A stretch of 6,922 bases of DNA from JBDRGX01 sp043817485 [NCBI: bacterium] (GTDB lineage: Bacteria; JBDRGX01), in the NCBI GenBank assembly GCA_043817485.1, contig JBDRGX010000061.1, positions 1 through 6,922 of the forward strand. Reading direction: 5' to 3'. Positions 1 to 4,441 of the stretch are shown piece after piece (within the stretch, counting starts at the first letter, position 1; each line of letters starts with the position of its first letter). The notes under the pieces were generated by a model. That model searched no databases and was not told the origin of the DNA. It saw only the letters and a list, made by a program, of their open reading frames with translations. The position numbers and the translations under genes are program-made.

Positions 1-1197
1 TTTTTTTCTTAAACAATATTTGACAATTTCCCCACATATTTGATAACTTTTTCTAAAAGGAACTCCTTTTTTTGTTAAATAATCAGAAATTTCTGAAGAT
101 GTAGAAAATCCTTTTTTTAACATTTGTTCCATATTAAAAGAGTTAATTTTCATTGTTTCAAAAATTTTTGAATAAATTAATAAAGAGTTTTTAGTAATAT
201 CAATGGTATCAAATAAAGGAATTTTATCTTCTTGTAAATCCCTATTATAACTCGAAGGCAAACCTTTCAATAAAGTCAATAAAGATATAAGATTTCCATA
301 AACTCTACCAGTTTTTCCTCTTATAAGTTCTAAAATATCAGGATTTTTTTTATGAGGCATAATACTACTGCCAGTACAAAAAGAATCATCTAATTCAATA
401 AAATTAAATTCTATAGTTGACCAAATAATAAGATCTTCAGAAAAACGAGAAAGATGCATCATTATAATTGCGCAAGTATTTAAAAATTCTATCATAAAAT
501 CACGATCTGATACTGTATCTAAACTATTTTCAGAAATTGCTGAAAAATTCAATTCTTTTGCTACAAAATTTCTATCAATAGAAAAAGATGTCCCTGCTAA
601 AGCACAAACACCCAATGGTAAAATATTTGTTCTTTTATATACTTCTTTTAATCTTTCTGTATCTCTTTCAAAAGAAGTGATATGAGACAACCAATAATGA
701 GCAAGTGAAATTGGTTGTGCATGTTGAAGATGTGTGTATCCCGGCATAATAACATTTATATCTTTTTGAGCACGAGATAATAAAGTATCTTGTATCTTTT
801 GAATTAATTCTACTATGTTTTTAATTTCATCCTTTAAAAATAAACGAATATCTAACACTACTTGATCATTTCTACTACGAGCAGTATGAAGTTTTTTTCC
901 TACTTCTCCAATTTTTTCAATTAACTTAATTTCAATATTAGAATGTATATCTTCATTTTCTAAACTAAATTTAAAGATACCTTTTTCAATTTCTTTTTCA
1001 ATTTCTTTTAAGCCCTTAATAATTTGATTACATTCTTTTTGTAAAATAATTTTACATTTAGCCAACATTTTAGTATGAGCAATACTTCCTATAATATCAT
1101 ATTTATACAATCTTGCATCAAAAGAAATGGATGCTGTAAATTCTTCTACTAATTTATCTACATCTTTAGAAAACCTTGCTTGCCAAACTTTTTTCAT
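1..1197 (-). CDS. argH: Argininosuccinate lyase, C-terminus cut by window edge
   Basis: Cleaves argininosuccinate to arginine and fumarate, the last step of arginine synthesis, as a cytosolic homotetramer of the fumarase/aspartase superfamily. The frame is open for 399 codons from ATG at 1197 to the window edge. Since the family is usually about 455-465 residues, roughly 60 C-terminal residues are missing. Visible signatures are the N-terminal KVWQARFS, TARSRNDQV (about 105-113), GYTHLQHAQP (153-162, containing the conserved Thr-His pair) and the superfamily signature GSSIMPHKKNPD (276-287), which holds the catalytic serine. The start is supported by AGGAG at 1208-1212, ten bases upstream, and by the ATGA overlap with the argG stop, which suggests translational coupling. 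No internal stop or missing catalytic motif is seen. The identification is firm; only the C-terminus cannot be judged. Confidence 0.96.
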   Translation of the reverse strand, partial: MKKVWQARFSKDVDKLVEEFTASISFDARLYKYDIIGSIAHTKMLAKCKIILQKECNQIIKGLKEIEKEIEKGIFKFSLENEDIHSNIEIKLIEKIGEVGKKLHTARSRNDQVVLDIRLFLKDEIKNIVELIQKIQDTLLSRAQKDINVIMPGYTHLQHAQPISLAHYWLSHITSFERDTERLKEVYKRTNILPLGVCALAGTSFSIDRNFVAKELNFSAISENSLDTVSDRDFMIEFLNTCAIIMMHLSRFSEDLIIWSTIEFNFIELDDSFCTGSSIMPHKKNPDILELIRGKTGRVYGNLISLLTLLKGLPSSYNRDLQEDKIPLFDTIDITKNSLLIYSKIFETMKINSFNMEQMLKKGFSTSSEISDYLTKKGVPFRKSYQICGEIVKYCLRKK

Positions 1198-2399
1198 TTT
1201 TTCTTTTCTCCTAATGTTTTCAAACTCATTCCCCATAATTCAATAAAGCCCTTAGCTAATTTTTGATCAAAAACATCTTCTTTTCCATAAGTAGCTAATT
1301 GATGTCTATACAAAGAATAATCTGATTTTCTTCCAACAACACAACAATTTCCTTTATATAATTTTATTCTAATAACACCCGTTGTCCGAATATGAAGTTT
1401 ATTCATAAACTCATCGATAGCTTCTCTTAAAGGAGAACACCAAAGTCCATAATATACTAAATCTGCATATTTTAAACTTAAAAGTTGTTTATAATGCAAG
1501 GTTTCTCTATCTAAAACAAGTGTTTCTAAATCAGATAAAGCAGTATATAAAATAGTTCCTGCTGGAGATTCATATATTTCTCGAGTTTTAATTCCAACAA
1601 GCCGACTTTCAATCATATCCACTCTTCCAATACCATACTTACCACCTATTTCATTTAATTTTTGAATTAAATTTACACCATCATATTTTTTATCATCTAT
1701 TTTTACTGGAATACCGTTTTCAAAAGAAATTTCTAAATACTTTGAATTAGATGGAGTTTTATTAAGAGAAGTAGTTAATTGATAAATATCTTCTTGTGGT
1801 TCTTTTTCTAAATTTTCTAAATCTCCACTTTCTATTGCTAAATGCCAAAGATTTTTATCTAAACTATAAGGAGATTTTTTAGTTGCTTCAATTGGAATAT
1901 TATATTTTTGAGCATATTCTATTTCCATTTCTCTTGTTTTTAATTCCCATTCTCTTAAAGGAGCAAGAATTGTTAAAGTTGGATCTAAATAAGAAATAGT
2001 AAGTTCAAGCCGTACTTGATCATTACCTTTTCCAGTACAACCATGAACAACAATATTTGCTTTTTCTTGATGTGCAATTTCTACTATTTTTTGAGCAATT
2101 AAAGGACGAGATAAAGCAGTTCCTAAAAGATATTGTTTTTCATAAATAGCTCCAGCTTTTAAACTTGGCCAAATATAATTTTCTACAAATTCTTTTTTTA
2201 AATCTAAAATATAAATTTTACTTGCACCAGATGCTTTAGCTTTTTTGGTTAAAAAATCAGCATCTATTCCTTGTCCAACATCAGCAACTACAGCTATTAT
2301 TTCAGCTTTATATTTTTTTTTAAGCCAATGAAGCATTACTGAAGTATCTAATCCTCCAGAATAAGCTAAAACAATTTTTTCTATTTTCTTAGAAGCCAT
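1194..2399 (-). CDS. argG: Argininosuccinate synthase
   Basis: Joins citrulline and aspartate using ATP to give argininosuccinate, the second-last step of arginine synthesis, in the cytosol. The 401 residues match the family's usual 395-410. The N-type ATP pyrophosphatase loop AYSGGLDTSV lies at 12-21, VADVGQG at 38-44, HGCTGKGNDQVR at 119-130 (nucleotide and substrate contacts), the KSPYS-DKNLW segment at 175-185, SGDLE at 191-195, and a C-terminal GRVDMIESRLVGIK block typical of the family. ATG at 2399 has a strong AAGGAG at 2407-2412 with a 7-base gap; this site lies inside the end of argF, whose coding region overlaps argG by 19 bases. The TGA stop overlaps the argH ATG. It is intact and should be co-transcribed with argF and argH. 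No anomaly seen. Confidence 0.97.
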   Translation of the reverse strand: MASKKIEKIVLAYSGGLDTSVMLHWLKKKYKAEIIAVVADVGQGIDADFLTKKAKASGASKIYILDLKKEFVENYIWPSLKAGAIYEKQYLLGTALSRPLIAQKIVEIAHQEKANIVVHGCTGKGNDQVRLELTISYLDPTLTILAPLREWELKTREMEIEYAQKYNIPIEATKKSPYSLDKNLWHLAIESGDLENLEKEPQEDIYQLTTSLNKTPSNSKYLEISFENGIPVKIDDKKYDGVNLIQKLNEIGGKYGIGRVDMIESRLVGIKTREIYESPAGTILYTALSDLETLVLDRETLHYKQLLSLKYADLVYYGLWCSPLREAIDEFMNKLHIRTTGVIRIKLYKGNCCVVGRKSDYSLYRHQLATYGKEDVFDQKLAKGFIELWGMSLKTLGEKKK

Positions 2400-3067
2400 G
2401 TTAAAACTCCTTTTTGTAAATGAAGTCTATTTTCTGCTTGATCAAAAACACAAGAATTTTCTCCTTCTAATACTTCTTCTGTAATTTCTTCTCCTCTATG
2501 TGCTGGAAGACAATGCATTACTAAACAATCTTTTTTAGCACTCAAAAGAAGTTTTTTATTTACTTGATATTTTTTAAATATTTTTTTTCTTGTAATATTT
2601 TCTTTTTCATATCCCATACTTGTCCAAACATCAGTATAAATTATATCTGCTCCAGATACTGCTTCTTGAGGATCTCGAGTTAATACAATCTCACATTTAT
2701 TTTTTAAAGCCTCATCTTTTGCTTTATTTAAAAGATCTGTATCTACATCAAATCCTTCTGGAATGGCTAAATATAAATTTAATTTTACTTTTGGACTAAT
2801 AGCAATAAAAGAACGACAAACATTATTTCCATCTCCAATCCATGCTAATTTAAGTCCTGCTAATCGGTTTTTTTTTCTTAAAATAGTATAAATATCTGCT
2901 AATACTTGACAAGGATGTTCATAATTAGAAAGAGCATTAATAACTGGAATACTGCTTTCTTTTGCCAATTCTACAATAGTTTCATGTTGAAAAGTTCGAA
3001 TAACAATACCATTCAAATATCGAGATAAAATTTTAGATATATCTTTAATCAATTCTCTTTGTCCCAT
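2381..3067 (-). CDS. C-terminal fragment of ornithine carbamoyltransferase
   Basis: This is the 228-residue frame that continues directly after the TAA, opening with ATG in the junction TAAATG. It holds the rest of the carbamoyl-phosphate domain (HPCQ at its residues 51-54) and the whole ornithine domain (DVWTSMG 146-152, HCLPAHRGEE 185-194), and ends in TAG inside argG. The ATG aligns with an internal Leu/Met position of normal family members, not with a family start. No convincing Shine-Dalgarno precedes it; only a weak GAAG lies upstream. Reinitiation after the adjacent stop is possible in principle. Alone it would lack the phosphate loop SLRTK. Best read as the 3' part of argF. Confidence 0.6.
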   Translation of the reverse strand: MGQRELIKDISKILSRYLNGIVIRTFQHETIVELAKESSIPVINALSNYEHPCQVLADIYTILRKKNRLAGLKLAWIGDGNNVCRSFIAISPKVKLNLYLAIPEGFDVDTDLLNKAKDEALKNKCEIVLTRDPQEAVSGADIIYTDVWTSMGYEKENITRKKIFKKYQVNKKLLLSAKKDCLVMHCLPAHRGEEITEEVLEGENSCVFDQAENRLHLQKGVLTWLLRK

Positions 3068-3292
3068 TTAAAAATCTTCAAAAGGTAAACAAAAACTTTG
3101 TCCTCCTAATTGATAAATTCCTACTTCAAAAGAAACTTTGGTTCTCAAAGAAGGTAAATTAAAAATTAATCCAATTGATTTTCCTTCTAATGTTTTTGGA
3201 TGTTTTTCATGATGAATGCTTTCTGTAAGCATTAAAATTTCTTCTATTTCTTCTATACATAAATCATTAAGACTAATTAAATCTTTTTTCAT
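3068..3292 (-). CDS. N-terminal fragment of ornithine carbamoyltransferase
   Basis: This is the 74-residue product expected if the TAA at 3068-3070 terminates translation. It covers only the start of the carbamoyl-phosphate domain: the opening KDLISLNDL, the phosphate-binding loop PSLRTK at 47-52 and VSFEVGIYQLGG at 53-64. It ends just before the 80s-loop Gln and lacks the ornithine-binding half, so it cannot be an active enzyme alone. It is preceded by a good Shine-Dalgarno (AAGGA in AAGGAAATGAA) and is the first reading frame of the arginine operon. Best read as the 5' part of argF rather than a separate gene. Confidence 0.6.
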   Translation of the reverse strand: MKKDLISLNDLCIEEIEEILMLTESIHHEKHPKTLEGKSIGLIFNLPSLRTKVSFEVGIYQLGGQSFCLPFEDF

Positions 3293-3463: not shown

Positions 3464-3495
3464 ATGGGGATTGAATTTTAAAATTCAATCCCCAT
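3464..3495 (-). terminator. Rho-independent terminator after the TPR gene
   Basis: A perfect 32-bp palindrome: the left half ATGGGGATTGAATTTT is followed by its exact reverse complement. Read on the minus strand, it begins 20 bases after the TPR gene's stop, and the stem with its four G-C pairs at the base is followed by TTTTAATTT, as expected for a terminator. On the plus strand the stem is followed by AGGAGG rather than a T-tract, so it should act only on minus-strand transcription. It would separate the TPR gene from the arginine operon downstream. Confidence 0.75.
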
Positions 3496-3546
3496 AGGAG
3501 GAGAAAAATGAAAAATTACATTAAACTATTGATAAAATTTTTATAA
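3496..3546 (+). other. Strong Shine-Dalgarno followed by a 12-codon mini-ORF
   Basis: On the plus strand, immediately after the palindrome, AGGAGG (3496-3501) is followed six bases later by ATG (3508) and the short frame MKNYIKLLIKFL ending in TAA at 3544-3546. It lies antisense to the end of the TPR gene. No plus-strand promoter is evident, and on the minus strand the same bases are simply the short trailer before the terminator. Probably chance; recorded because the ribosome site is the best in the window. Confidence 0.2.
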
Positions 3547-4151: not shown

Positions 4152-4188
4152 TATTTCACAATATCTCAAAATGTCTCATTGTGAAATA
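4152..4188. repeat. 11-bp perfect inverted repeat (hairpin)
   Basis: The arms TATTTCACAAT (4152-4162) and ATTGTGAAATA (4178-4188) are exact reverse complements around a 15-base centre. The centre contains two TCTCA motifs (4164, 4174) that are inverted copies of the TGAGA motifs that follow. There is no T-tract after the arms, so this is not an obvious terminator; an operator or RNA hairpin is more likely. Confidence 0.6.
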
Positions 4189-4250
4189 ATGATTTGAGAA
4201 TTTTTGAGACAATTTTGAGAAAATGAGACAAGGATGAGACAAATCTCAAA
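4163..4250. repeat. Cluster of TGAGA / TGAGACAA motifs at near-helical spacing
   Basis: TGAGA occurs at 4195, 4205, 4216, 4224 and 4235, and its reverse complement TCTCA at 4164, 4174 and 4244. Three of the direct copies are the longer word TGAGACAA (4205, 4224, 4235), and an inverted TGTCTCA lies at 4172-4178. Neighbouring copies are mostly 8-11 bases apart, close to one turn of DNA. The segment TGAGACAATTTTGAGA (4205-4220) is also nearly the reverse complement of 4164-4178, so alternative hairpins can form. The motif is far denser here than elsewhere in the window. It could be a cooperative regulator site; an iteron-like role cannot be excluded. Confidence 0.55.
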
Positions 4251-4297
4251 ATATTTATTTAAAAATTTTTTAAAAGAAAAATTAGATTAAAAATTCA

Positions 4298-4418
4298 TGA
4301 TGCCCCTACAAATAATTGCCACACACAGGCAAACAACCGTTCGCCTTTACACAAACCAATTATTTTAAATAATTTCCTTGATGATTTAATAAAGAATGGT
4401 TACCATGTGAGGGCATCA
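4298..4418. repeat. 121-bp element bounded by imperfect 13-bp inverted repeats
   Basis: The ends are TGATGCCCCTACA (4298-4310) and TGTGAGGGCATCA (4406-4418), reverse complements except for two adjacent bases. The interior holds further pairings: AGGCAAAC-AACC-GTTCGCCT (4327-4346, one G-U type mismatch), AATTATT-TTA-AATAATT (4358-4374) and ATGGT-T-ACCAT (4396-4406). By count its G+C is about 36 percent, well above its surroundings. The layout fits either a miniature inverted-repeat element, as the TGTAGGGGC-type end and the GGCGAAC hairpin resemble dispersed intergenic repeats known from other bacteria, or a structured small RNA closed by a terminal stem. No target-site duplication is clear and no transposase is present. 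It does not match tRNA, tmRNA, SRP RNA or 5S rRNA by eye. Confidence 0.45.
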
Positions 4419-4441
4419 ATCACACAAAAAACAAAAAAAAC

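Follow-up and report, generated by a model that had tools for sequence, protein, structure and literature searches.

In ornithine carbamoyltransferase, Gln82 of the neighbouring subunit is reported to be one of the residues stabilising the phosphonate moiety of carbamoyl phosphate (excerpt of PMC7004355). The residue that the adjacent subunit gives from its 80's loop varies even inside one enzyme family, being His in human and Gln in E. coli, and the Lys of the FxKxSxRT motif has been linked to ornithine binding via a water molecule (both statements from the excerpted text of PMC4581275). In-frame stops are described as widespread in bacterial genes, mostly short-lived and on the scale of population polymorphism, with artefacts to be expected among them (excerpt of PMC7918605). 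Stop codons are also known to be reassigned in bacteria, and the excerpt of PMC8629427 names UGA alone. Translation restart is efficient only where genes overlap or lie very close together, and in three pairs of E. coli genes a 2-nt spacing lowered it by 5, 20 and 70% (excerpt of PMC10666635). Our literature search on Omnitrophota with arginine biosynthesis found no paper, and that on split transcarbamoylases found papers on other subjects only.

The window, by which we mean the whole stretch of DNA analysed, comprises 6,922 bases with a G+C content of 17-29% in 500-base steps. Its minus strand carries argH, argG, argF and a TPR gene, and its plus strand carries CorA, a GalT-like gene and a gene for a B12-binding-domain protein. 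The features of the arginine genes and their upstream flank are as follows.

1..1197, minus strand: argH (argininosuccinate lyase), intact to the window edge, with an ATGA overlap with the end of argG (Pfam, NCBIfam)
1194..2399, minus strand: argG (argininosuccinate synthase), intact, its start overlapping the end of argF by 19 bases (Pfam, NCBIfam)
2381..3067, minus strand: C-terminal part of argF, 228 residues, with the HPCQ, DVWTSMG and HCLP motifs (Pfam, NCBIfam, motifs)
3065..3067, minus strand: codon 76, an ATG (Met) that adjoins the TAA and may serve for restart (sequence TAAATG)
3068..3070, minus strand: in-frame TAA, argF codon 75 (sequence; aligned with E. coli Gln82)
3068..3292, minus strand: N-terminal part of argF, 74 residues, covering the beginning of the carbamoyl-phosphate domain and including the SLRT motif (Pfam, motif)
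3464..3495, minus strand: terminator-like site between the TPR gene and argF, a perfect inverted repeat with 16-base arms followed by a T run

Further stretches drew attention in their own right. In the intergenic region between the TPR gene and CorA, positions 4290-4425 of the plus strand fold at -31.6 kcal/mol, far better than shuffles (z -4.42; z -2.25 on the minus strand), into a structure closed by TGATGCCC/GGGCATCA arms. A search of Rfam gave no match to it at gathering score, and the structure could belong to a small mobile repeat or to an RNA. Upstream of it, at 4160-4255, TGAGACA / TCTCA motifs are repeated in both orientations. Within 3496-3546 of the plus strand, a strong AGGAGGAG site is followed by an ATG at 3508 and a frame of 12 codons (read by eye), part of which runs antisense to the TPR gene end; this arrangement may be due to chance.

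The ornithine carbamoyltransferase gene argF runs from 3292 to 2381 of the minus strand as 303 codons and a terminal TAG, the latter falling within the start of argG. Its sole internal stop is the TAA at codon 75 (3070..3068, minus strand), and no frameshift is involved. The 74-residue part before this TAA matches positions 1-71 of 148 of the Pfam model OTCace_N, while in the 228-residue part after it OTCace_N is matched at 85-147 and OTCace at 2-157 of 157. When read through the TAA, the protein scores 372.6 bits against TIGR00658, the NCBIfam model of ornithine carbamoyltransferase (cut-off 280.85), and lies also above the ornithine carbamoyltransferase cut-off of NF001986. The motifs SLRT, HPCQ, DVWTSMG and HCLP stand at codons 48, 126, 221 and 260. 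The first-pass annotation had described a complete argF frame, unchanged in phase and broken by a single TAA, and these results bear it out. Membership in ArgF goes with one uninterrupted coding frame, and that frame is interrupted here at codon 75. Codon use is alike on both sides of the stop, with a third-position G+C of 0.068 before it and 0.070 after it (0.077 in argG). Because 95 sense codons of the 304 in argF (304 including both stops) are one substitution from TAA, the landing of the stop on such a codon is unremarkable in itself.

The argF alignment holds 190 relatives, 111 Omnitrophota rows and 79 others, which are what remained of 196 loci after removal of L081 (site uncovered) and of L082-L086 (repeats of earlier loci). 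The Omnitrophota rows, so called after the record title of L009, consist of L009 and the best 110 of 353 matches in a search of its phylum. The window groups with these 111 rows in the argF tree (support 0.73), and in a tree built from both argF and argG its sister is the set of 25 Omnitrophota loci used that carry the two genes (support 0.965). The best argF identity to any relative is 57%, among the matches listed in the part of public sequence searched. Searches of the orders of G283, G158, G319 and G148 (128 genomes each for G283 and G148, the two sets overlapping) yielded no argF closer than that. A scan of viral contigs gave one partial relative, which was left out of the analysis, and among the plasmids searched no record reached 60%. 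The tree placement and the best identity together indicate that the window belongs to a deep, unsampled lineage in or beside Omnitrophota. Since the nearest relative found is 57% identical, the intact form of codon 75 cannot be seen.

A comparison of argF in related genomes, one of the checks that the first-pass annotation had proposed, found an internal stop in 0 of the 190 aligned relatives; these are the best full-length matches, so that broken copies are under-sampled and the count is a biased one. The further argF searches, of the phylum and of the orders, showed no stop in any match listed. On the strength of both results, the argF stop appears not to be a trait that the group has inherited. 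In the argG search, 19 rows among the matches listed were flagged, with every stop confined to the first 3 codons of the match or to its last 6 and none internal to these 19 relatives. An argF match at 1e-60 was missing in 31 of 384 genomes, and when 20 of these were re-searched, argG was present in 9 and a carbamoyltransferase match at 1e-5, partial or weak, in 18. Four such cases were inspected: G133 has argF in two pieces around a run of N, which is an assembly gap; the contigs of G097 and G236 stop next to argG; and in G197 argG is preceded by 686 bases, reaching to the end of the contig, which are without argF. None of the four is a proven loss of argF.

Codon 75 aligns with residue 82 of E. 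coli ArgF (counted without Met), a Gln, and the first-pass annotation had taken the lost codon to be Gln within a family sequence D-[LI]-Q-L-G-R-G-E. The alignment does not establish this identity. Gln occupies the column in 68 of the 79 other relatives (Gly in 10, Glu in 1), but in only 4 of the 111 Omnitrophota rows, where Asn (62), Lys (24), Asp (10) and Ser (8) are more frequent and Gly, Glu and Arg occur once each. Nor is the surrounding motif secure, as the nearest relatives mostly read E-I-N-L-G-V-R-E. Seven later loci have Asn in four cases, Gln in two and Asp in one; L197, L198 and L199 among them are the same genes as L129, L142 and L146, so that only the four Asn are new. The argF tree sets the window beside the Gln-bearing rows L129, L142 and L186 with a support of only 0.18, and a former Gln at codon 75 is, from the sequences compared, possible. 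Given that the residue varies, both among the Omnitrophota and according to the excerpt of PMC4581275, an argument that runs through Gln is not supported. General knowledge of a family is thus an unsafe guide to the name of a lost residue where the nearest relatives rarely carry the residue expected.

We then asked how far the rest of argF departs from its relatives. Against 25 Omnitrophota, argF has a mean identity of 0.539 and argG one of 0.584; the difference of 0.045 compares with an average of 0.071 among those relatives themselves. Where these 25 are invariant, the window differs at 5 of 84 argF columns and at 10 of 130 argG columns. At argF columns conserved to at least 95% in Omnitrophota the window shows 8 departures against a median of 1, a number reached by 5 of the 111 rows; at these same columns the 79 non-Omnitrophota rows have a median of 7, which makes the 8 of the window ordinary for its distance. 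At argF columns conserved in both pools the window has 3 departures, as many as are reached by 3% of the 190 rows, and in a smaller set of such columns it departs at 3 of 52 in argF and at 1 of 67 in argG. The near-invariant columns that are altered are Lys46 to Leu, Asp123 to Asn and Ala295 to Gly. The first of these is the third position of FxKxSxRT (codon 46, 3155-3157, minus strand), which is Lys in 111 of 111 Omnitrophota and in 77 of 79 others. The N part of argF has a mean identity of 0.493 and the C part 0.534, and a larger shortfall occurs in 13% of the 111 rows. The departures at columns conserved in both pools could reflect some older relaxation. We considered an older decay of argF and did not find it clearly supported, since the 8 departures are ordinary, although the 3 at columns conserved in both pools are mildly contrary. 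Because argF contains no further stop, simple mutation models bound the neutral divergence since loss at less than about 0.052 substitutions per site (95% bound). The gene seems to show no clear relaxation, as would be expected if the loss were recent, and the first-pass view that decay must be recent if real agrees with this bound and with a divergence that fits that of argG.

Recoding can be judged from the other genes of the window. The TPR, CorA and GalT genes all terminate in TAA, and the seven window genes (two of them cut by the window edge) contain, in 2,093 codons, TAA 4 times (three of them terminal), CAA 63 times and CAG twice. A second internal stop was not found in any of these 2,093 codons; a scan of this kind had been suggested together with the idea of a decoded stop, and the only internal TAA among the seven genes is that of argF. 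Reassignment of TAA should place the codon inside several conserved genes and never at their ends, whereas the window has one internal and three terminal cases. Genome-wide recoding of TAA, which we considered as a candidate, is rejected on the evidence of the three window genes that it terminates. The CorA frame would continue in frame into GalT if its TAA were read, a continuity that we take as chance because CorA is matched by TIGR00383 to position 320 of 320 and so ends with the family model. Genes for tRNA were not found within the window.

A narrower form of decoding would have the argF TAA read by a near-cognate or suppressor tRNA, yielding some full-length enzyme in a low-expression state. 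The overall divergence of argF, which has no excess over that of argG, would suit such a reading, as would the argument in the excerpt of PMC7918605 that bacterial in-frame stops often go with a dN/dS that stays below 1. Programmed readthrough, however, would be expected to leave a conserved stop and a stimulating structure. The stop is conserved in 0 of 190 relatives (none found above 57% identity), and the 101 bases starting at the stop itself fold at -11.2 kcal/mol (z +0.68), no better than shuffles. With three window genes ending in TAA, with Gln not the usual residue at the site within Omnitrophota, and with UGA the only reassigned bacterial stop named in the excerpt of PMC8629427, we regard readthrough as improbable. 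A different way of keeping the enzyme is suggested by the adjacency of TAA and ATG, which is absent from the first-pass annotation: a natural two-piece enzyme of 74 and 228 residues, made by stop and restart at TAA-ATG and broken in the 80's loop, whose parts would assemble together into the trimer while coupling keeps argG translated. A split gene should have its second start beside the first stop, and here the distance is 0 nt (TAAATG), well within the very short distances at which restart is efficient according to the excerpt of PMC10666635. Moreover, both parts retain their family matches, and the ATG lies right after the TAA even though few relatives have Met in that column (1 of the 111 Omnitrophota rows and 3 of the 79 others, 4 of 190 in all). 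The ribosome-binding site of the internal ATG is nevertheless weak, its Shine-Dalgarno pairing of -1.8 kcal/mol being near the background median of -1.6 (argF -7.0, argG -8.4). Considering also that the 190 relatives include no argF split by a stop and that the chain break takes out a loop residue that contacts the substrate, we hold a two-piece enzyme to be very improbable, and its co-assembly and coupling to argG equally so. Ribosomes restarting at the ATG could still keep argG translated, and restart could matter for argG, given its 19-base overlap with argF and the ATGA that it shares with argH.

An error of consensus or assembly, or a minority variant picked by the assembler, would leave the argF of the organism intact. 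The lesion is a lone one of substitution type in a gene that has no stop in any of the 190 aligned relatives, the window may derive from a metagenome assembly, argG and, within the window, argH are whole, and an assembly fault was met in the argF of the relative G133 (run of N). Against an error stand the absence of a second internal stop in the 2,093 codons of seven genes and the continuation of the frames through 17 coding-region A/T runs of 7-11 bases; owing to the latter, the consensus is not indel-noisy. The kept frames speak for a good consensus, to judge from the sequence itself, but one wrong base is compatible with them. We therefore place an error next in rank and consider it rather unlikely. 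The argF TAA is probably a recent single-base nonsense mutation, either fixed or present at the level of the strain. Among the explanations offered by the first-pass annotation, a recent nonsense change, a strain variant and a consensus error all fit the data; the decoded stop is not supported, in view of the three genes that TAA terminates, the 63 CAA codons, the relatives and the downstream RNA that folds no better than shuffles, nor is the argument through Gln. Under a recent nonsense mutation, ribosomes would stop at codon 75 and release a fragment of 74 residues without most of the enzyme, and little or no ornithine carbamoyltransferase would remain. A share of the ribosomes may restart at the adjoining ATG and translate on into the overlapping argG. 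Expression of argG and argH would then continue, the cell would need arginine or citrulline from outside, and the mutation would be too recent for decay to have accumulated in the remainder of argF.

If real, the stop would show the loss of an arginine pathway at the moment when that loss begins, in a deep-branching and very A+T-rich lineage, with argF broken while argG and argH are still whole as far as the window goes. Compared with anabolic ArgF (TIGR00658, Pfam PF02729 and PF00185), the window argF has in common the SxRT, HPxQ, DxxxSMG and HCLP motifs and the full-length frame, and it differs by the TAA at codon 75 and by Leu at the third position of FxKxSxRT, which is usually Lys. Its setting is shared as well: argF adjoins argG in the window and likewise in 29 of the 30 Omnitrophota loci L087-L116. 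The bacterial stop reassignments of PMC8629427 have a low G+C content in common with the window; those named in the excerpt concern UGA, whereas the stop here is UAA, which still terminates other genes of the window, and the argF stop gives no basis for a new genetic code. The in-frame stops surveyed by Belinky et al. 2021 (excerpt of PMC7918605) are the usual setting for a finding of this kind; the window argF shares with them a single stop and little sign of prior decay, and differs in being represented by one strain, whereas conservation of a stop and dN/dS are measured across strains.
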